The notes under the pieces were generated by a model. That model ran no database searches. It was not told where the DNA came from and worked only from the letters and a program-made list of their open reading frames with translations. 37,922 nucleotides of DNA from Candidatus Dadabacteria bacterium (GTDB lineage: Bacteria > Desulfobacterota_D > UBA1144 > Nemesobacterales > Mycalebacteriaceae), in the NCBI GenBank assembly GCA_026708565.1, contig JAPOUR010000017.1, forward strand, positions 1-37,922. The letters are read 5' to 3'. Of this stretch, positions 1,608 to 22,218 are shown in pieces (the first letter of the stretch is position 1; each line of letters begins with the position of its first letter). The translations under genes were made by a program, and so were the position numbers.

Positions 1608-2296
1608 CCGTAAGCATCAATGCTCAAGTGATTTGATTTTATGGCGGAACGGGACCAGTGTTCTTCAATGGACTGTATAAACTCGGAGCGCACAAGTTTG
1701 GCGCGTTGTCCAAGCCATTTTTCATCTTGATCAAACCTCAGATAGAGACCTTCTGCAGGCTGGTCGGCAAGTTTTGACTGCGAAAGAAGTTGCCGGAGTT
1801 CCAGGTATGTGAAATACCCTTGCGCAATAAACGGAACTTTAGCAATGTGCATTTTCTTGAGCATGTTGTCGCGCCGACCCGATGAAAGAAAACGGGCAAC
1901 TTCTTTGTCATAGATATCAAAACCGAGAAACCAGTCCGGCAGACGCTCATAGAAAACCGAATGCCGGGCAAAACACCATTCTCCAAAAAGAATGTAACGG
2001 TCGGAAAGATTGTCAAACAGCAAACCAATCCGGGGCGACAACCAACTCTCAAGTTTTTTCCATTGACCTGCTCCGGGCAACTGCAAGTATGAGCCTCTGT
2101 TTTGTGCTCGCACATTGCCTTCCAAATCAAACGAAATCCCAAGATTCGCCCCGTCCACCTTCTCTTCAACAACAAGGTTGTGTTGCAGAAATTCATCGCG
2201 TCCGGAAGCCGACAACACCTTATCATCCCTTATATCCGCGCCGGGCAACACCGCCAGATGAGGCGTAGAGGGGAATTTGAAAAAATCTTCTTTCAT
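1604..2296 (-). CDS. ATP-dependent RNA ligase (Rnl2-like nucleotidyltransferase)
   Basis: A 230-residue protein with the ordered motifs of the covalent nucleotidyltransferase ligase superfamily: motif I KVDGAN with the nucleotidyl-accepting Lys46, motif III FGEW (about 104-107), motif IIIa FLGFDIYD (123-130), motif IV AEGLYLR with Glu182, and motif V RAKLVR with Lys200. The set and the short length fit an RNA ligase of the T4 Rnl2 type rather than a DNA ligase, as no OB-fold, zinc finger or BRCT domain follows. Expected chemistry is ATP-dependent sealing of 3'-OH/5'-phosphate RNA nicks. The start ATG overlaps the stop of the upstream PIN gene by 4 nt, and its own stop overlaps the next small gene, so translation is probably coupled. 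The substrate is unknown; joining broken tRNA or another nicked RNA is inference. Confidence 0.88.
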   Translation of the reverse strand: MKEDFFKFPSTPHLAVLPGADIRDDKVLSASGRDEFLQHNLVVEEKVDGANLGISFDLEGNVRAQNRGSYLQLPGAGQWKKLESWLSPRIGLLFDNLSDRYILFGEWCFARHSVFYERLPDWFLGFDIYDKEVARFLSSGRRDNMLKKMHIAKVPFIAQGYFTYLELRQLLSQSKLADQPAEGLYLRFDQDEKWLGQRAKLVRSEFIQSIEEHWSRSAIKSNHLSIDAYG

Positions 2297-2829
2297 CGGC
2301 CCATCTTCTTCTTGTATGTGGCTTCGGCATACTCAGGGCAGACAAAATGAACATGAATGCCTTCTTCCTCCAAAGCATCTCTCCAACCCCACCACTTGCT
2401 ATCTGTCGCTTGCAGTATTGACGGCTTCTTCCGACTCGAATGGGCGTTTGCCACAGCAACAAACTTTCGGTCTGACGGGTCAAAATTAGTCAAGTCTTTA
2501 TGGTTCGGGAATTCATCGTAAGAGTCGCCGTTTTTTGTGATTTCTACCCTATGGGAGTCGGGCAACTTCCAACGCTGGGTGTGAACCCATTTCATGAACT
2601 TGTCGCCGACATTCGGTGCTCCGCTCATATTGAGTTGCCGTCGGTATTCATCAAATATCTCATTACCGCTATCTATTACCAATGCGCGATTTCTAATAAC
2701 ATGTTCAATTGCTTCAATACATTTTCCCACACACTCAGGGGACACATCAGATCCAGAGTCTGGCTGAATGGCAAGATTGGCTGTCTTTGGAACATTTGTA
2801 TCTACCACACATTTATCAGGCAAGATCAT
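2293..2829 (-). CDS. PIN-like nuclease domain protein
   Basis: A 178-residue protein with the acidic residue pattern of PIN-fold nucleases: CVVDTNV near the N-terminus (Asp10), an acidic helix IFDEYRRQL (Glu57, Asp60, Glu61), the centre FDPSDRKFVAVANAH (Asp117, Asp120), and a final strand QATDSKWW (Asp143). These are positioned as expected for a metal-binding active site on RNA or DNA. No membrane segment is seen. It lies in an operon between an ATPase gene (4-nt overlap at 2826-2829) and an RNA ligase gene (4-nt overlap at 2293-2296). Most PIN proteins are ribonucleases, so an RNA cutter paired with an RNA sealer is the natural reading, but neither activity nor target can be read from sequence. 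The assignment rests on motif pattern, not close homology. Confidence 0.72.
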   Translation of the reverse strand: MILPDKCVVDTNVPKTANLAIQPDSGSDVSPECVGKCIEAIEHVIRNRALVIDSGNEIFDEYRRQLNMSGAPNVGDKFMKWVHTQRWKLPDSHRVEITKNGDSYDEFPNHKDLTNFDPSDRKFVAVANAHSSRKKPSILQATDSKWWGWRDALEEEGIHVHFVCPEYAEATYKKKMGR

Positions 2830-4244
2830 TCAGACTCCTCCGCTTTACCCTCATTTTCTCGCGTCCGTTTCCCCATAGCAGCCTTGGATTGCTCAATAAT
2901 GTCCTCCATTTCATCACCGAAGAAGTTCTCTGGCCAGTTTTTTATGTTACCGAACAAATTAATTTCCAGAGGGTCCAGTGTTGCCGGAGTTCTAGTTATA
3001 TTGGCAAAATAGGCTGACACTTTCTCTTTCGGAATTCTATCTTCAGCAATCCGCCTTTGTAGCCGCCTCAGAAAGTGCTCCGAATGAGTCTCAATGATCA
3101 ATTGAATGTTCCTGTCTGCTCCGTTTTCTCTAGAATTAATGGCATCTATCATCACATCAGCCAACGCAGACTGAGCACTTGGATGCAAATGAATCTCCGG
3201 TTGCTCCATGATGATTATAGACCTCGGCGGAGCATAGAAGCATTGCACCAAAACTGGCAACACTTGCGATATACCGAAGCCGACATCGGGAAGATCTACC
3301 CAGTCCCTTGACCCTTTGGTGCAAACCTTGACCTCATAGTCTTGTCGCTGCTTGGTTATGGGTTTGACCTTGAATTCTTCTATTAGTCCCATTTCCTTGA
3401 GTTTAATGGCTATAGATTCTTGAAAGGGTTTCTTGCGTCGTCGGTGAGCAAAACTAATTTTGCGGTTTTCTGCGGCAAGAATAGCCGCAACCGTGTTCTC
3501 ACCTTCGTAGCCTACACTGTCAGGTTCTATTCCTGTCCATGAATACAAGCGTTCAGCTTTTGTGCGAAGTGGCCCGAGATAGTACAGATTTCTGAATAAC
3601 TTTTCATGCTCCAGATTCAGAGTCTGAACAAAATCCGCATTCTGATGGTAAGCAACCACCTCATCAGGAAACCCATAAAACCGGACCGGCGCACCGAGAG
3701 GCCACACGCGCCCTTGTCTACGTGTGAGTTCGTATCCTTCAACTGGGTATTCAACTTCATAATCAGAACTGGTGTCTGACTTGCGCTTCATTACTATGGA
3801 TAATTTGACTTTATCTTCGTGCAATATCTTGTAACAGAGGCTATGAAGTACTGGTGTGTTTTTATCTTTAACGCTCAATCCCGTCTCAGCACTAAAAGAT
3901 AGAATATTGCCAGAAACTTTCTCTTGATCTTGGTGCAAGCGGTCTTCTATCTCCAGCAACTCCGGCATTACCCACTGATAATCAAATGCAATCTTATTTG
4001 CAGAATTACGGTGAAAGACCATCTCCTGATAAGATCCAAGGTGGACAGCAGAATTCTTACCGCCGGGATAAAAAACCGCTTTTCTGTCTGGAGACTCAAC
4101 GGTCTGCTTCAACATCATAAGAAACTGACCGATGCTGGATTTTCCCGAACTGTTGGCCCCAAACAGTAAAGTTATGGGGGCCATCTTGATAACTCCGGTA
4201 TCCTCCCATCCCTTGAAGTTTTTTATTCGCAATTCCTTGAGCAT
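2826..4244 (-). CDS. SMC/OLD-like AAA ATPase (DUF3696 type)
   Basis: A 472-residue ABC/SMC-like ATPase. The N-terminal strand and loop KELRIKNFKGW lead into Walker A GANSSGKSS (residues 29-37). The middle contains a YLGPLRTKAERLY segment typical of DUF3696-type ATPases. The signature-like region GFGISQVLPVL precedes Walker B IIIMEQPEIHLHP (about 343-355), and the switch histidine lies in ETHSEH (about 385-390). The C-terminus is charged. No TOPRIM or nuclease domain is fused, so an effector would be separate, matching the PIN gene that overlaps it by 4 nt. Such ATPases often serve as sensors or activators in phage-defence modules (Septu, PARIS and OLD/Gabija types are known precedents). A promoter-like site lies between this gene and serS, so the operon need not depend on serS transcription. 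Confidence 0.85.
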   Translation of the reverse strand: MLKELRIKNFKGWEDTGVIKMAPITLLFGANSSGKSSIGQFLMMLKQTVESPDRKAVFYPGGKNSAVHLGSYQEMVFHRNSANKIAFDYQWVMPELLEIEDRLHQDQEKVSGNILSFSAETGLSVKDKNTPVLHSLCYKILHEDKVKLSIVMKRKSDTSSDYEVEYPVEGYELTRRQGRVWPLGAPVRFYGFPDEVVAYHQNADFVQTLNLEHEKLFRNLYYLGPLRTKAERLYSWTGIEPDSVGYEGENTVAAILAAENRKISFAHRRRKKPFQESIAIKLKEMGLIEEFKVKPITKQRQDYEVKVCTKGSRDWVDLPDVGFGISQVLPVLVQCFYAPPRSIIIMEQPEIHLHPSAQSALADVMIDAINSRENGADRNIQLIIETHSEHFLRRLQRRIAEDRIPKEKVSAYFANITRTPATLDPLEINLFGNIKNWPENFFGDEMEDIIEQSKAAMGKRTRENEGKAEESE

Positions 4245-4296: not shown

Positions 4297-5577
4297 TTAG
4301 GGCATCCTCTCAATCCTCTCCACCCCTCCCATGTAAGGCACAAGCGCCCCCGGCACTTCAACACTCCCGTCTTCCCTCTGAAAGTTCTCAAGTATCGCCA
4401 CAACCGTTCTTCCAATCGCAAGCCCCGAACCGTTGAGGGTGTGAGCAAAAGCCGTCTTTTTGCCGTCCTTGAACCTTATCTGCGCCCTTCTCGCCTGAAA
4501 ATCCTCAAAGTTGCTGCACGAGGAAATTTCCCTGTATGCCCCCTCGCCGGGAAGCCAGACCTCAATGTCAAAGGTCTTTGCCGCGGAAAAACCCATGTCG
4601 CCCGCGCAAAGGGTTACCACACGGTGGTGAATGCCCAGCCGCTCAAGTATGCCGCATGCGTCTTTGAGCAGGGAATCAAGCTCCGCATAAGACTCTTCGG
4701 GACGCGCAAACTTGACCAACTCCACCTTGTTGAACTGATGCTGCCTTATGATGCCCTTTGTGTCTTTGCCGTAAGACCCCGCCTCTTTGCGGAAACAAGG
4801 CGTGTATGCCGCATATTTGAGCGGCAGGCTTGCCGCGGGGATTACCTCGTCCCGGTGAATGTTTGTAACCGGCACCTCGGCGGTCGGAATCAGGTAGTAA
4901 TCGGTGTCTTTCAGTTTGAACAGGTCTTCCTCAAACTTCGGCAGGTTGCCCGTTCCCGTCAAACTGGCGGTGTTTGCCGCAAACGGCGGCAGGGTCTCGG
5001 TGTATCCGTTCTCGCGGGTGTGAACGTCAAGCATGAAGTTTGCAAGCGCGCGCTCAAGAAGCGCGCCCGCGCCCAGGTACAGCGAAAACCGCGAGCCCGT
5101 TATCTTTGCCGCCCGCTCAAGGTCAAGAACGCCGAGAGCCGCGCCGATTTCATCATGACGAAGCGGGGCAAAACCGAATTCGGGCTTCTCCCCCCACCGC
5201 GAAACTTCAACGTTTTCACTCTCCCCCGCCCCCGGCGGAACACTGCCGTGCGGAAGGTTGGGTATGCCGAGCATCTCGCCCCTTATGCGGCTTTCCGTGT
5301 CCGCCCTTTCGGCGTTGAGGGTTTTGACCTTTTCGGAAACCTCTTTCATACGGGCGGAAAGCGAGGCAAAACCGCCCTCGTCTCCCCGCCGCTTCATCTC
5401 CGCCGCCTCGCGGGAGCCCTCGTTGCGCTGCCGCTCCAGCGACTCCGCCTGCGCTATCAGTTCGCGCCGCCGCTCAAAAAGTCTCACCAGCGGGGCGAAA
5501 TCAAACGAAAATCCCCGCCCGGACAGGCGCGTCTTTACTTCATCAAGATTGTTTTCAACAAATTTCCAGTCAAGCAT
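4297..5577 (-). CDS. serS: Seryl-tRNA synthetase
   Basis: Charges tRNA-Ser with serine in the cytoplasm. The start chosen is the ATG at 5577, giving [14 protein letters not shown], the normal SerRS N-terminus; the upstream in-frame extension crosses the promoter. The product is 426 residues, the usual bacterial length. An N-terminal two-helix coiled-coil arm (about 25-105) is followed by the class II core: motif 2 region [21 protein letters not shown] and motif 3 region [19 protein letters not shown]. The C-terminus [17 protein letters not shown] is typical. A -10 box lies 8 nt before the ATG, so the mRNA may be leaderless. The 3' end is repeated imperfectly at 1363-1425. Confidence 0.97.
4310..4379 (-). 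repeat. serS 3'-end partner of direct repeat
   Basis: This is the intact coding copy, within the last codons of serS, of the diverged segment at 1363-1425. The exact 15-base core is 4361-4375. If the block between the copies inserted by site-specific recombination, this would be the reconstituted gene end and the other copy the displaced original. No integrase gene is visible in the block. Confidence 0.45.
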
Positions 5578-17697: not shown

Positions 17698-18729
17698 TTA
17701 CTGTCCCTTCAGTATGTCGTATCCGGTAATTGACATACTTTTTTCCGCCATGCTTTCAACATACTGCGAGTCAACCATTCCCGCATTGAATGCCTTTGAA
17801 ATGCGCATAAGGGCTATTTTTGCGGTCGCCTCATCAACCATCTGGCCGGTGTCGGGGTCAAACATGCTTCCGCCTCCCTGTTTGTGGTAGAAGTCCAATT
17901 GGTGTTTTGCCTCTTCAATCTGTTTTTCGGTCGGGGTGAAGCCGCCGTTGGCGATTGCCGCCTGCTGCGGGTGGATAACCCATGTGCCGTCCATTCCTAT
18001 CTCCGCGGAACCGGCGCATTTCTTTGCGAGCCCGCTTTCAACCTCTTTAACGGTTTCGGGGCTGTCGTCCTTTCTCCAGATGCGGAGGTAAACGTTGTCT
18101 ATCGCGTGAAGCCCCGCCGCTTTTGCCGCTGTAACAACGGCTTTTTTCTCGTAGTAGAAGATCTCGTTCTGCCTGTCCAGCAGAAGGTCGGGGTCAAGCC
18201 CGATTTCGGCGGCGTAGTCGGCAATTCCGAACACAAGCCCCGCCATTCTGGGGCTTGCGGTGGCTATTTCGTAGGCGTATTTCAGCGCGCGGGGGCGTTC
18301 AATCAGCGCCTCTATGGCGACGGTGGTTTTCCAGTTGTGTTTTTTCTCAAGGTCATCCAGAAGGTCGGACACGATTTTGATGTCTTCGGGGCCGTTGGAT
18401 TTGGGGATGATAACGCCGTGAAACTTGTCAACCGCTCCGCTCATAACGGCTTCAAGGTCTCCCTTGAAGAAGTCCGAGCGCACATTGTTGGGGCGCACGG
18501 TTATGACCTTTTTGCCGAAATCAAGGGTGTTGAGGGCTTCAACCATCACCTGCCTGCTTTTGTCGCCTTTGAATTCGTAGGGGCAGGCGTCCTCAAGGTC
18601 CGCCATTACGTGGTCAACGGGCGCTTTGTTTGCGTCCGCCGCGTTTGTGTGAAGTTTGAGGTTGTGTCCCGGATATGTCAGTTCCGTCCGTGGAACTACA
18701 ACCCTTGAACCGTTATCCAATACAAACAT
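17698..18729 (-). CDS. HpcH/CitE-type CoA lyase, probably malyl-CoA lyase
   Basis: A 343-residue TIM-barrel aldolase of the HpcH/HpaI-citrate lyase beta family. The start is the ATG at 18729 (MFVLDNGSRVVVPR) behind AGGGAGAA; the earlier frame start lies in the promoter. The signatures are HVMADLEDACP (metal and substrate acidic residues), VIIPKSNGPEDI, AIEALIERPRAL with the metal-binding Glu, and the CoA loop MDGTWVIHPQQAAIAN. Length is near malyl-CoA/beta-methylmalyl-CoA lyases, and an ethylmalonyl-CoA mutase occurs 7 kb away, which supports that pathway. Other CitE-like activities such as citramalyl-CoA lyase remain possible. Confidence 0.8.
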   Translation of the reverse strand: MFVLDNGSRVVVPRTELTYPGHNLKLHTNAADANKAPVDHVMADLEDACPYEFKGDKSRQVMVEALNTLDFGKKVITVRPNNVRSDFFKGDLEAVMSGAVDKFHGVIIPKSNGPEDIKIVSDLLDDLEKKHNWKTTVAIEALIERPRALKYAYEIATASPRMAGLVFGIADYAAEIGLDPDLLLDRQNEIFYYEKKAVVTAAKAAGLHAIDNVYLRIWRKDDSPETVKEVESGLAKKCAGSAEIGMDGTWVIHPQQAAIANGGFTPTEKQIEEAKHQLDFYHKQGGGSMFDPDTGQMVDEATAKIALMRISKAFNAGMVDSQYVESMAEKSMSITGYDILKGQ

Positions 18730-18772
18730 TTTCTTTCTCCCTGTTGTTGGTTTTTGCGCCGAAGACACCGGA

Positions 18773-18801
18773 AATATCAATAAAAAACGGGGTTTTGTCA
18801 A
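18773..18801 (-). promoter_or_regulatory. Promoter of the CoA lyase gene
   Basis: On the minus strand TTGACA (18796-18801), a 17-nt spacer and GATATT (18773-18778). The leader is about 37 nt and carries the AGGGAGAA ribosome site. The same TTGACA-17-GATATT arrangement occurs before the NYN gene. Confidence 0.65.
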
Positions 18802-18840
18802 GACGGGATAGTGTCTTTAAGGGCGGGGAAACATCGACGG

Positions 18841-19035
18841 TCAAAGGTCAATCTTGACTGTTTGCCCTGTCGCAGATTCTTTCAGGCTTCGTGCCAATGC
18901 CGCGCGATTCTCCGAAGTGGAGTTCAGGTAGGCGGTCTCATCGGCACTTGTTTTTTTTCTGTTACGAGTACCGGGCTTGACACCAACCGCTACCGATTTT
19001 GTTGCCCCGGCTACTGTTTGTTTCTTGTTACGCAT
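18841..19035 (-). CDS. Small basic protein, antitoxin-like tail
   Basis: A 64-residue frame with an AGAGG ribosome site 7 nt before its ATG and a TATAGT -10 box upstream. The first half is Lys/Arg/Thr-rich and probably disordered. The second half, SADETAYLNSTSENRAALARS then LKESATGQTVKIDL, resembles the DETxYL-NxxxL region of Phd/YefM antitoxins. No toxin gene is adjacent, so a classical pair is not seen. It lies just downstream of the pentamer array and may belong to the same accessory patch. Function unknown; the antitoxin likeness is weak. Confidence 0.5.
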   Translation of the reverse strand: MRNKKQTVAGATKSVAVGVKPGTRNRKKTSADETAYLNSTSENRAALARSLKESATGQTVKIDL

Positions 19036-19060
19036 GTTGTGCCTCTGTCAAAGTAATATC

Positions 19061-19066
19061 ACTATA
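19061..19066 (-). promoter_or_regulatory. -10 box before the small basic protein gene
   Basis: TATAGT on the minus strand, about 25 nt before the start codon, with the AGAGG site in the leader. No convincing -35 was found. Confidence 0.35.
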
Positions 19067-19114
19067 GCGACCAAGAGGCAAGTAAAAGGGCGAGTTAAAG
19101 TCCCGCCCGAAGAC

Positions 19115-19328
19115 TGTCCATGCCGTGCCGCGCCTGACCCCGCCAGACCTTGCCGCGCCGAACCTCACCGTGCCCCGCCTTACCACACCTCGCCACGGTA
19201 TCTTATTTCCCTGCCATACCAAGCCCTGCCTAACCGTGCCAGACCCCACCGTGCCAAGCCCAACCTTGCCATGCCGCGCCTGACCCAGCACTGCCTAACC
19301 GAGCCAAGCCTGAACCAAGCCTCAAGCC
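19115..19328. repeat. NNRCC pentamer array (GGYNN on the minus strand)
   Basis: Two phased blocks of 5-nt units, 19120-19194 (15 units) and 19211-19310 (20 units), separated by a 16-nt AT-rich interruption; two looser units continue into the stop codon of the gene at 19322. In 34 of 35 units the third base is a purine and the last two are CC, while the first two bases vary freely. The strict period with free dinucleotides is unlike coding DNA, a microsatellite or a CRISPR. It begins exactly where the minus-strand gene ends and would be transcribed as its 3' untranslated region. Function unknown. Confidence 0.9.
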
Positions 19329-19933
19329 CAATCGGGCTTCTCTTTGACCTCCTCTATGTTCTCAATCGTGAACCGCCCGTAGTGTCCGCTTTTTTCGGGT
19401 CTCCAGTCGCCCAAACCGACACGCCGACCGCCGACATCCAGAAACTTCTCAAGTTTCGGCTTGTCTATCAACTCGTCATCTGTGTCCAACACAAACTCCG
19501 CGCTCCACTGGTCAAACTTTGCCCGTGTCCGCAAAAGCCGAGACCTCTGCACAACAACCGGCACAGTAAACTGCGCCTTCCGGCTCAATTCCTCAAGCGT
19601 CTTGCCGAGTGTCTTGCGGTCGTAGTCAAACTTGACTGCCGCCACAACCAGCCCCTCGCGCACATCGCCGCCCTGCTTTGACTTACGCGCCCCGTTCTCA
19701 ATCATTCGCCGGATTGCCCCGTGCGGGATTGTCGGTTGATCATTCTCATCAAGCCAGAGCGAAGACTGACATTCAAGTTCCCGGAGTCGGGCTTCGTCTG
19801 CCTCTGTGCGGTTGCTTCCTTTCTTTCGGGCGATTTCCGCTTTCTCAAGATTTGCGGGGCTTCTGGTATCCAGCCCTGCTTCCCCGGAGTGCATAATGAG
19901 GGGAGTTTCCCCTTTAATCGTAACGCAAAACAT
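19322..19933 (-). CDS. Phage-type protein of unknown function, RAMP-like motifs
   Basis: A 203-residue soluble protein with a strong ribosome site (AAGGAGG, about 10 nt before the ATG). I do not recognise a named family. Three features recall the RAMP (Cas5/Cas7-like) fold: a first strand VTIKGETPLIMHSG, a helix start IPHGAIRRMIENGARKSK resembling the IPGSSLRGxLR motif, and a Gly-rich segment GGRRVGLGDWRPEKSGHYGRF near the C-terminus. Between them lies a charged linker. The HNH gene upstream overlaps it by 232 nt in another frame, and the pentamer array starts at its stop codon. No Cas genes or CRISPR are nearby. Composition and partners suggest phage or mobile origin; the RAMP relation is inference. 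Confidence 0.7.
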   Translation of the reverse strand: MFCVTIKGETPLIMHSGEAGLDTRSPANLEKAEIARKKGSNRTEADEARLRELECQSSLWLDENDQPTIPHGAIRRMIENGARKSKQGGDVREGLVVAAVKFDYDRKTLGKTLEELSRKAQFTVPVVVQRSRLLRTRAKFDQWSAEFVLDTDDELIDKPKLEKFLDVGGRRVGLGDWRPEKSGHYGRFTIENIEEVKEKPDWA

Positions 19934-20193
19934 TTGCTGATGACCTCCTTAAATGTTGATTTGAAGAGCGGCCTGTCAACACCAAGCCGATAAGCCCGGC
20001 GCATTGTGGTCGCTACCTCATGACACGGATTACAGAGCGGGGTAAGGTCGTCTGCGGTAACAGTTGCGGCATAACGCCAATGGTGGGCGTCTGTCGCCTC
20101 CGCCGTTCCGCAGAACGCGCACTTTCCGCCCGTGCGGGCAAAACATTCCTTCCGCGCTCGTTGAAATTCGGGACCGTATCGCTTGCTATCCAC
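19702..20193 (-). CDS. HNH-type endonuclease domain protein
   Basis: A 163-residue frame with GTG start at 20193. The N-terminal 65 residues contain a zinc-bound HNH-type core: CAFC (25-28), the HH pair in TDAHHWRY (37-38), and LCNPCHEV (Cys54, Cys57, His58). From about residue 87 onward (past 19935) it runs through the start of the next gene in another frame and becomes Lys/Ser/Arg-rich without domain features, so the true C-terminus may be shortened by a frameshift or this tail may be real overlap. It belongs to the phage-like patch with the RAMP-like gene. HNH proteins nick or cut DNA; the target is unknown. A -10 box 9 nt before the GTG predicts a leaderless message. Confidence 0.75.
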   Translation of the reverse strand: MDSKRYGPEFQRARKECFARTGGKCAFCGTAEATDAHHWRYAATVTADDLTPLCNPCHEVATTMRRAYRLGVDRPLFKSTFKEVISKCFALRLKGKLPSLCTPGKQGWIPEAPQILRKRKSPERKEATAQRQTKPDSGNLNVSLRSGLMRMINRQSRTGQSGE

Positions 20194-20202
20194 AAGGGGG
20201 GA

Positions 20203-20208
20203 ATTATA
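20203..20208 (-). promoter_or_regulatory. -10 box directly before the HNH gene
   Basis: A perfect TATAAT on the minus strand with 9 nt to the GTG start at 20193. No ribosome site and no clear -35 are present. Predicts transcription starting almost at the start codon. Confidence 0.5.
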
Positions 20209-20270
20209 CCCGCGATTTGAAACCGCATACGGCTTTACATTACCACCCTCAATTCAAACCGCCGGAAACC

Positions 20271-20906
20271 CTAACTCCAATCATCCGGTTTTCTAATGGT
20301 GGTTCCGGGAATGTTGTCGGGCATTTGAGACTTGTGCAGGAGCGACCCTCTTATTTTTCTCACAAAATGAGCGTATTTACCCAGTTGCGCGGAGGACGTT
20401 CCGCCCGGAGTTATCAGACCAATCACTTTTTCGGGAAACCGCTCCCTTACCATCTTCAGCGATTCAGTCATATCGCTGTCATTTGAGGCGATAACGGCGC
20501 AATCGTATGTGTCAAGCCATGCATCATTGAGAAGGTGAACCGCCAGATTTACATCCGAGCCTTTCTCTTCGGCTCTCCACACTTTTACCGTATTGTGAGG
20601 CGGAGTCACTTCCGCCATTGCGACTTTGTGAAGCGCAAAATGACCGTAGTGAATGCTGATTTCAGGAATGTGCTTTTGCAATGCCCGCAAGTAGGTTTGC
20701 TGTCTTTGCGGCGCTTTTTCGTTGCCGGGTATGGGTTTTACTATTGCCGTAAAATACTTGATTTGAGTAATAAGGTTGTTGCTTTTGAGTAATTGAGAGA
20801 ACAGAGATTTCAGGTCAAGCCACTTGAAAGGAGTGTTTTTTACACAACCGTAATAAAGGTTTAGACCGTCAACATATACTGTTGTCCTCAGAGACTTCAT
20901 TGACAT
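20271..20906 (-). CDS. NYN-domain (LabA/DUF88-type) protein
   Basis: A 211-residue protein of the NYN family, PIN-like presumed nucleases. The N-terminal metal-site strand TTVYVDGLNLYYG has Asp13 and Asn16; the centre carries EEKGSDVNLAVHLLNDAW and the strand CAVIASNDSDMTESLKMV with further acidic residues; then KVIGLITPGG and the helix SAQLGKYAHFVRKI complete the domain. Two close starts exist (20906 and 20900). It is preceded by a good promoter and a stable hairpin that may mask the ribosome site. It lies next to the HNH patch on the same strand, but is separated from it by 77 nt. Likely RNA-directed; target unknown. Confidence 0.87.
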   Translation of the reverse strand: MSMKSLRTTVYVDGLNLYYGCVKNTPFKWLDLKSLFSQLLKSNNLITQIKYFTAIVKPIPGNEKAPQRQQTYLRALQKHIPEISIHYGHFALHKVAMAEVTPPHNTVKVWRAEEKGSDVNLAVHLLNDAWLDTYDCAVIASNDSDMTESLKMVRERFPEKVIGLITPGGTSSAQLGKYAHFVRKIRGSLLHKSQMPDNIPGTTIRKPDDWS

Positions 20907-20912
20907 AAAGCA

Positions 20913-20932
20913 AGGGCTCCCGAAGGAGCCCT
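20913..20932. promoter_or_regulatory. Stable UUCG-type hairpin in the NYN leader
   Basis: A perfect 8-bp stem AGGGCTCC/GGAGCCCT with a TTCG loop on the minus strand. Its 3' arm contains the only GGAG-like ribosome site, ending 10-14 nt before the start codons, so it might control translation. It could also serve as a terminator for transcription from either side, though no T-run follows. Confidence 0.5.
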
Positions 20933-20971
20933 GCGGTCCGGGGACGAATCCGCCGGATGTGGTAGTGTTGA

Positions 20972-21000
20972 AATATCGCCTTATTTGCCCGCGCTGTCAA
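20972..21000 (-). promoter_or_regulatory. Promoter of the NYN gene
   Basis: TTGACA (20995-21000), a 17-nt spacer and GATATT (20972-20977) on the minus strand. The predicted leader of about 60 nt contains the hairpin at 20913-20932. Confidence 0.65.
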
Positions 21001-21051
21001 GAATTTTTTTAACCGTATGACGGATGCCAATCACCCCCACAAACCAGAGCC

Positions 21052-22218
21052 TCAGTAAACCTCAAGCAACCTTCTTGCTATCACTTCGTGCTGAATCTCG
21101 CTTGTCCCCTCAAAGATGCTGAACACCCTTGCGTCCCGCCAGAACCGCTCCATCGGATACTCCGATGAATAGCCGTAACTGCCGAACACCTGCATCGCCT
21201 CTCTTGTAACAAACTCCGCCATCTGCGCCGCCTTCGCCTTGGCGACACCGGCTTCAAGGTCGCACCTCTCGCCCCTGTCCTTCTTTTCCGCCGCCACATA
21301 GGTCAGGTAACGCGCCGCCTCAAGCTCCGTCCACATCTCGGACAGTTTGTGCCGTATGATTTGAAACTCGCTTATGGACTTGCCGAACTGGTTGCGCTCC
21401 TTTGAGTATTTAACCGCCTCCTCAAACGCCGCCTGCGCCACGCCGACCGCGCGCGCGGCGGTCTGTATCCTTGCCGCCTCAAAGGTGGACATAAGATGAT
21501 AAAACCCCCTGCCCTCCTCCATTCCCAGAAGGTTTTCCGCCGGAACTCTGCACTCGTCAAAACTCACTGTGAAAGACTTCATTCCGTGATAGCCGATTGT
21601 GGGAATGGGCCCGCCCGCAATGTTGGGGTGGTCAAGATGTTCGGACGGCTCTTTTTCAACAAGGAAAATACTGAGCCCCTTGTGCCTCTTTGAGGCGTCG
21701 GGGTCAGTGCGGGCGAGAACCGCCAGAATGTTCGCGCGGTTGGCAAATGTGCACCATGTTTTCTCCCCGTGAAGGATGTAATGGTCTCCGTCCTTTGTCG
21801 CCCGGAGTTTTATGCCCGCGAGGTCTGAGCCGTTGTCGGGCTCGGTGAATGCGGCGGCGGACATAAGTTCGGCGGACGCAAGGCCCGGAAGAAATCTCTT
21901 TTTCTGCTCCTCGTTTCCGCCGTTCTGAAGCAGAGTGCCGGTTATGATGTTTCTGGTCATAACGCTCCCCGCGCTCAGAAGGCCCCTGCTGAGCTCCTCG
22001 GTAACCACCGCCATGCTCACATAGTCAAGCCCCACGCCGCCGAGTTCCTCGGGAAATATCATGCCGAAATAGCCGAGGTCTCCCATCTCCCTGATGATTT
22101 CGGGCGGAATCTCCTTGTTGTTGGTGTGTATGTCCGCCGCGATGGGAACAATTTTCTCTTCGGTGAATTTTCGGACTTCGCGCCTTATCTCTTCGTGTTC
22201 ATCTGTGCACAGAGGCAT
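21052..22218 (-). CDS. Acyl-CoA dehydrogenase
   Basis: A 388-residue FAD flavoprotein that forms the alpha-beta double bond of an acyl-CoA and passes electrons to electron-transfer flavoprotein. The three-domain family pattern is clear: LMSAAAFTEPDNGSDLAGI and HGEKTWCTFANRAN (flavin/substrate region), RNQFGKSISEFQIIRHKL, and QVFGSYGYSSEYPMERFWRDARVFSIFEGTSEIQ-type C-terminus, where the Glu in FEGTSEI is the usual catalytic base. The ATG is preceded by GGGGGGAT. Chain-length specificity is unknown; methylsuccinyl-CoA dehydrogenases are longer, so a role in the ethylmalonyl-CoA pathway is only possible. It is expressed alone, behind the trmB terminator. Confidence 0.94.
   Translation of the reverse strand: MPLCTDEHEEIRREVRKFTEEKIVPIAADIHTNNKEIPPEIIREMGDLGYFGMIFPEELGGVGLDYVSMAVVTEELSRGLLSAGSVMTRNIITGTLLQNGGNEEQKKRFLPGLASAELMSAAAFTEPDNGSDLAGIKLRATKDGDHYILHGEKTWCTFANRANILAVLARTDPDASKRHKGLSIFLVEKEPSEHLDHPNIAGGPIPTIGYHGMKSFTVSFDECRVPAENLLGMEEGRGFYHLMSTFEAARIQTAARAVGVAQAAFEEAVKYSKERNQFGKSISEFQIIRHKLSEMWTELEAARYLTYVAAEKKDRGERCDLEAGVAKAKAAQMAEFVTREAMQVFGSYGYSSEYPMERFWRDARVFSIFEGTSEIQHEVIARRLLEVY

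Follow-up and report, generated by a model that had tools for sequence, protein, structure and literature searches.

The array of GGYNN pentamers described here is very probably (at about 0.9) the guide-RNA part of a VIPR (Viral Interference Programmable Repeat) system, the gene preceding it coding for the effector Vipr. The locus lies in a chromosomal window of 37,922 nucleotides (the whole stretch of DNA that was analysed); it is a genuine VIPR member, associated with an HNH gene. VIPR is known from one preprint centred on phages, first posted in April 2026 and not yet peer reviewed (PMC13142463), and the window locus was found independently of it. A match to PDB 36pp led to the preprint, and all that had been measured earlier agrees with it. 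The locus comes from an uncultured bacterial lineage; the corresponding site of a congener is cleanly empty, and a separate putative guide gene lies elsewhere in the assembly. It provides an independent test of the array-gene linkage, the free dinucleotides and the RAMP fold, and gives concrete predicted target sequences.

A VIPR system is marked by Vipr, a RAMP homologue whose single RRM-type core has a G-loop, and by an accessory vap gene serving DNA interaction. In the published systems Vipr is paired with vrRNAs that carry a structured tail and 9-16 YNNGG units each; these RNAs are expressed and were found to co-purify with the protein (PMC13142463). The NN dinucleotides pair with double-stranded DNA, one base being skipped per unit, and the targets are competing phages and prophages (PMC13142463). 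Most VIPRs are viral or proviral. Types III and V have predicted nucleases and are said to sit in defence islands, the nuclease-bearing types being described as host immune systems (PMC13142463). VIPR has been proposed as an ancestor-like relative of CRISPR effectors (PMC13142463).

Structure of the array

The array occupies positions 19321-19118 of the minus strand and begins directly 3' of the TGA stop codon (19324-19322) of the open reading frame 19933-19322. Parsed in a fixed phase, it has two units at its 5' end, one extra A, a 20-unit block, an AT-rich break of 14 nt, AAATAAGATACCGT (16 nt counting the preceding GG), which moves the phase by one, and a second block. The GGY rule is kept in 19 of the 20 units of the first block, the sole exception being TGCTG, and in all 15 units of the second. 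The first-pass annotation had counted 34 of 35 core units obeying the rule among about 37 pentamers, and the parse reproduces both figures. Its AT-rich break with a one-nucleotide phase shift, its placing of the start at the stop codon of a RAMP-like gene and its strand reading (GGYNN in the mRNA sense) were likewise correct.

The chance that a single unit obeys the rule is about 0.04 at the base composition of the window, and that of the whole tract is about 1e-47, a rough estimate assuming independent units. No array of this kind occurred in 551 kb of codon-shuffled viral DNA, and the 1.57-Mb genome contains just one other. Among plasmid records no DNA match to the window array was found. 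Since its dinucleotides are free, the tract was not called at period 5 by Tandem Repeats Finder.

Identical dinucleotides never occur in adjacent units of the window array. The third position of the unit is C or T in the viral arrays and the fourth and fifth are close to free. Among 4780 adjacent pairs in these arrays, neighbours share the same NN at a frequency of 0.074, compared with 0.077 after shuffling, and the frequency of identical units equals the shuffled level at lags 1 to 8. The combination of GGY at a fixed spacing with varying NN is therefore not the result of slippage, and the earlier suggestion of a selected spacing is supported.

A terminator-like hairpin is situated just 3' of the array. 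The pattern scan that located it found 5 terminators against 3.2 expected in shuffles, and its position is therefore the chief argument for it. Tract B is followed by this hairpin only, and tract A by the short break, which is similar to one in the viral contig L334. A structured tail like that of Escherichia phage SUSP1 was looked for at the window array and none was identified. Position and terminator suggest that the array is part of the vipr mRNA. The predicted guide tracts have 15 (B) and 22 (A) units and a further array, described below, about 18, the published range per vrRNA being 9-16. As tract A exceeds that range, it possibly gives rise to staggered, overlapping guides.

Table 1. 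Positions of the VIPR island, its parts and related elements (window coordinates unless a contig or locus is named).
Feature	Position	Strand	Remarks
Malyl-CoA lyase-like flanking gene	17698-18801		
VIPR island	18749..21051	.	2303 bp, between malyl-CoA lyase-like and acyl-CoA dehydrogenase-like genes
Small ORF	18841..19035	-	64 aa, inside island, downstream of array
Putative intrinsic terminator	19088..19108	-	just 3' of array; GGGCGGG-ACTTTAA-CTCGCCC + TTTT, pattern scan
Predicted guide tract B	19118..19194	-	15 perfect GGYNN units
Tract B, predicted NN order	19118..19194	-	GA GT AA GG AC GA TC GC AA CT GG CA GC AC AT
Break AAATAAGATACCGT between tracts A and B	19195..19208	-	candidate tail/boundary of first vrRNA
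Predicted guide tract A	19209..19321	-	22 GGYNN units, one imperfect, one 1-nt slip
Tract A, predicted NN order, part 1	19209..19321	-	TT TC TT TC TA AG TG CA GC AT AA
Tract A, predicted NN order, part 2	19209..19321	-	TG TT AC GG CT AC TA AG TT AT AG
vipr	19322..19933	-	RAMP/Cas7-like, 203 aa, phrog_4652 E 6e-32
HNH endonuclease ORF	19702..20193	-	candidate vap (accessory nuclease); several HNH PHROGs, best 2.5e-7
NYN-domain gene	20271..20906	-	HEC-09 (PADLOC candidate defence protein), phrog_7929; inside island
Acyl-CoA dehydrogenase-like flanking gene	21052-22218		
Orphan vrRNA-like gene	G000:C12:4594-4743 (= L010)		array 4594-4687, ~18 units
Actinophage minihelix sites	L131:4570-4850; L132:3740-3920, 5190-5380; L133:2980-3145; L363 near 2639; L413 near 2869		

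The Vipr protein

Judged by its sequence, the protein first described as RAMP-like is a Vipr homologue and a member of the VIPR family. Searched alone, it matched PDB 36pp, 'SUSP1 Vipr protein', with an E value of 1.8e-14. A profile built from 64 of the family's members matched one solved protein, again PDB 36pp (E 3e-48). The family is phrog_4652, listed with unknown function in PHROGs, and is absent from Pfam. The RAMP-like gene call was further confirmed by an AlphaFold2 model built on a 44-row alignment (pLDDT 94.9), with which Foldseek found the type III CRISPR RAMP chains Csm3/Cmr/Cas7, Csm3 being the top match. The reading frame is intact and all invariant residues are kept.

The genome carries one vipr gene. 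The closest Vipr proteins are those of the viral contigs L334 and L335 (IMG/VR), at 44-45%. In the Vipr tree, the deeper branches of which are weakly supported, the window protein groups with L334 (support 100/100) in an HNH-vipr clade.

Linkage between arrays and vipr genes

The association of array and gene was found from both directions. A gene-blind scan of IMG/VR for ten GGY spaced 5 nt apart gave at least 120 stretches, in agreement with the first-pass annotation, which had placed similar tracts in phage genomes. A Vipr gene is present in 87 of 120 viral loci among the matches listed, and in none of 23 control loci drawn by a random 15-mer. A phase-aware model applied to 152 arrays showed that the nearest upstream gene is co-oriented with the array in 119 of 139 cases, and that the array starts a median of 8 nt past the stop codon of such a gene. 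When clustered, the upstream genes form one dominant family, which is that of the window gene. In whole records the arrays are confined to one or a few places on a single strand.

The search starting from the gene used a 10-row alignment of nearer members; the window protein alone found no orthologues among viral contigs, and the alignment of 64 rows proved too diverse as a query. An array lies within 2.5 kb of vipr in 69 of the 80 viral loci and in 9 of the 12 genomic ones, and 108 of the 110 arrays in the viral set share the vipr strand. The outcomes that the first-pass annotation had named as contrary to its proposal (arrays at random positions, tied to no gene family, or formed by simple slippage) were sought, and none was seen.

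Of the arrays in Vipr loci 1% are of low diversity, compared with 14% of the others. The pattern matches in L111, L118 and L119 are true simple repeats, one unit accounting for more than 90%, and were set apart. A whole-record profile search also left some array-bearing viral contigs without a Vipr match (L026, L061, L033, L083, L113, L124 and others), some of these contigs being fragments of 50-105 kb. Such arrays represent either a divergent Vipr, effector-less guides or incomplete contigs.

The chromosomal island

In G011, the one same-genus genome compared, both flanking genes are present at 79-82% DNA identity and 18 bp replaces the 2303-bp island. The rest of the window is housekeeping chromosome, phage genes being absent beside the island. 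Apart from the window's own genome, none of 60 relatives searched has vipr, and none of 100 has an array of eight perfect units. The island genes follow one another in the order of transcription NYN, HNH, vipr, array and terminator. The HNH frame overlaps the start of vipr by 232 nt, and an HNH-like frame lies immediately upstream of vipr or overlaps it in 30 of 92 Vipr loci, near-duplicates counted. The NYN gene was not found beside the other Vipr genes examined, and a role for it in VIPR is therefore unsupported.

The direct repeats of the island are the pentamers only, and its proteins gave no Cas matches in PADLOC or Pfam; Class 1 CRISPR-Cas was rejected on this basis. A second candidate defence locus lies 15 kb from the island, where a two-gene operon at 2293-4244 on the minus strand matches the PADLOC candidates HEC-03A (E 1e-29) and HEC-03B (1e-129) and adjoins an RNA-ligase-like frame (1604-2296).

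An orphan array on another contig

The other array of the genome is framed by a promoter match (TTGACA-16-TAAAAT, 11/12) and by a terminator match with a 14-bp stem and T after it. It has ankyrin-repeat genes on both sides, on the same strand, and vipr is absent nearby. The two contigs belong to one assembly of uncultured origin with an estimated contamination of 0.05; a binning error that placed the orphan on the wrong genome is possible but not indicated. The orphan may feed the same Vipr in trans. The preprint's main text has no mention of orphan or trans-acting vrRNA genes in cellular genomes (PMC13142463). Assuming that the orphan does supply this Vipr, guide repertoires can grow through scattered genes, a step needed by the argument for a CRISPR origin.

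Target searches

Searches with tracts A, B and the orphan, allowing skips of 0-3 nt, found no site above chance in the 1.57-Mb genome, the skip-3 matches there being the arrays themselves. Twelve-unit patterns of tracts A and B, three mismatches at most being allowed, had no match in 148 genomes, the bacterium's own among them. Cores of 8 units gave 11, 30, 8 and 6 matches in viral contigs, in which the phages of the hosts are poorly sampled; these are about the chance number, and the flanks of the matches agree at 28, 26, 21 and 21%, which is the chance level. A limited all-against-all comparison of the fetched arrays with the fetched viral loci did not favour a 1-nt skip, as would be expected if the targets lie outside these loci. 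The skip rule therefore rests on the preprint.

Proposed working of the locus and other explanations

The transcript of the island would run through vipr into the array and end at the terminator. By analogy with SUSP1, every Vipr subunit along the RNA would hold one GGY and leave NN free to pair with DNA, so that a target would be read as NNxNNxNN with one base skipped per unit. Tracts A and B would then be two independently programmed guides, and HNH the putative effector nuclease. Given that the locus is a compact island in the chromosome, with HNH overlapping vipr and an NYN candidate defence gene next to it, its most likely role is to recognise the DNA of invading phages or prophages under RNA guidance, and perhaps to cleave it. 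The first-pass annotation, although right about phages, knew of no assigned function for such tracts; one has since been assigned, that of vrRNA guides of VIPR systems (PMC13142463). A tentative extension is that VIPR, coupled to a nuclease, is the bacterium's own immune system and has a split guide set. Two guides would lie behind vipr and the orphan would provide a third, so that guides would act in trans and could spread as separate genes.

Some doubt attaches to the beneficiary. Instead of the host, the system might serve a prophage or satellite residing in it, against that element's competitors, in keeping with the viral or proviral nature of most VIPRs (PMC13142463) and with the occurrence of the closest relatives, L334 and L335, in viral contigs. 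We consider this unlikely, as the island is embedded in housekeeping DNA away from phage genes and nuclease-bearing types are said to be host immune (PMC13142463). It is less likely still that the island is a decayed relic, delivered by a phage and no longer used. The target searches without a match, the broken unit and 1-nt slip of tract A, the overlapping HNH and vipr frames and the isolation of VIPR in its lineage would fit such decay. However, vipr is intact with its invariant residues and a high-confidence model, tract B is perfect, the same overlap exists in L334, and the orphan array is framed by promoter-like and terminator signals.

That the array acts at the DNA level, as a recombination joint or a protein-binding site mobilising the vipr cassette, is very improbable. 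Array-flanked cassettes with clean empty sites do occur (LittleE compared with Squint and MiaZeal, wV8 compared with ASO1A and RPN213), and the window island likewise has an empty site in G011. Nevertheless, array orientation follows vipr transcription, the window array is on one side of the island genes only, and the published vrRNAs are RNAs found with Vipr (PMC13142463). Recombination or binding could be an extra role beside guide function; integron-like cassette joints were rejected, as a side role at best. That the array is a functionless simple-sequence repeat, now degenerate, which arose when a single GGCNN-like unit slipped during replication, is scarcely credible: the few real simple repeats among the pattern matches (L111, L118, L119) are outweighed by the shuffled-level identity of adjacent units, the scarcity of low-diversity arrays in Vipr loci, and the confinement of the arrays to one strand and a fixed place past the stop codon. 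Two-quartet G-quadruplexes and RecT-like annealing proteins binding 5 nt per monomer were considered before the Vipr match was found.

Comparison with related systems

Like the window locus, the type II VIPR of SUSP1 (PDB 36pp) is compact and has an alternating GGY/NN array beside a homologous vipr gene on the same strand. The window Vipr, however, belongs to another, HNH-associated branch; its locus is chromosomal, with no recognised SUSP1-like tail, and its accessory gene is HNH, not phrog_5926, which is found in wV8-like and actinophage loci. VIPR types III and V, as described in the preprint (PMC13142463), share with the window a nuclease beside vipr, a cellular chromosome and candidate defence genes nearby. 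The resemblance to type III CRISPR Csm3/Cmr/Cas7 lies in the RAMP fold and glycine-rich loop, relatives forming an RNA-bound oligomer. It is limited by a sequence identity of 11-16%, a period of 5 rather than 6 nt, a guide read two bases at a time, and the absence of CRISPR repeats and cas genes from the island.

The viral loci L334 and L335 have, as in the window, an HNH frame that shares about 230 nt with vipr, an array starting from the stop codon, short array breaks and a terminator-like hairpin. The L334 breaks, GGGAATACGG and AAGGAATACGA, are comparable to AAATAAGATACCGT. Unlike the window, these loci are in phage genomes and have a second array upstream on the opposite strand.

In Mycobacterium phage LittleE, arrays with phrog_4652 and phrog_5926 replace 34 bp of Squint and MiaZeal, phages 95-98% identical to it, and the cassette is oriented opposite to the surrounding tail genes. 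In Felixounavirus wV8 hairpin-array units stand on either side of the phrog_4652/phrog_5926 pair, and relatives lacking the gene pair still have one such unit at the site. It follows that VIPR loci are mobile as compact cassettes.

The recurrent genes directly 3' of vipr on the same strand in viral loci include phrog_15946 (12 of 55), a candidate for an unnamed vap, phrog_5926 (5), ParB-like genes (3) and recombination genes, such as those for RecE/RecT-like proteins and RusA.

Actinophage VIPR loci have tRNA-like minihelices between the GGYNN runs. Each consists of an acceptor-like stem of 5 bp, a linker resembling GATGGTCGCA and a T-arm in which GTTCGANTCC is invariant. In ten copies 95.9% of the positions are paired, and 9 of the 10 pairs show compensatory change; none of 500 shuffles matches this pairing, and slid versions reach 41-66%. 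Neither ARAGORN nor Rfam recognised a known RNA at these arrays (L132), and tRNA is not mentioned in the preprint's main text (PMC13142463). The minihelices may be vrRNA tails or processing signals. The annotated start of Gordonia phage Trine gene 40 (phrog_5926, L131:4579-5382) is upstream of the array, which is therefore read as N-terminal protein. Similar array-encoded N-termini occur in other automatic translations (e.g. L035, L020 and L111).
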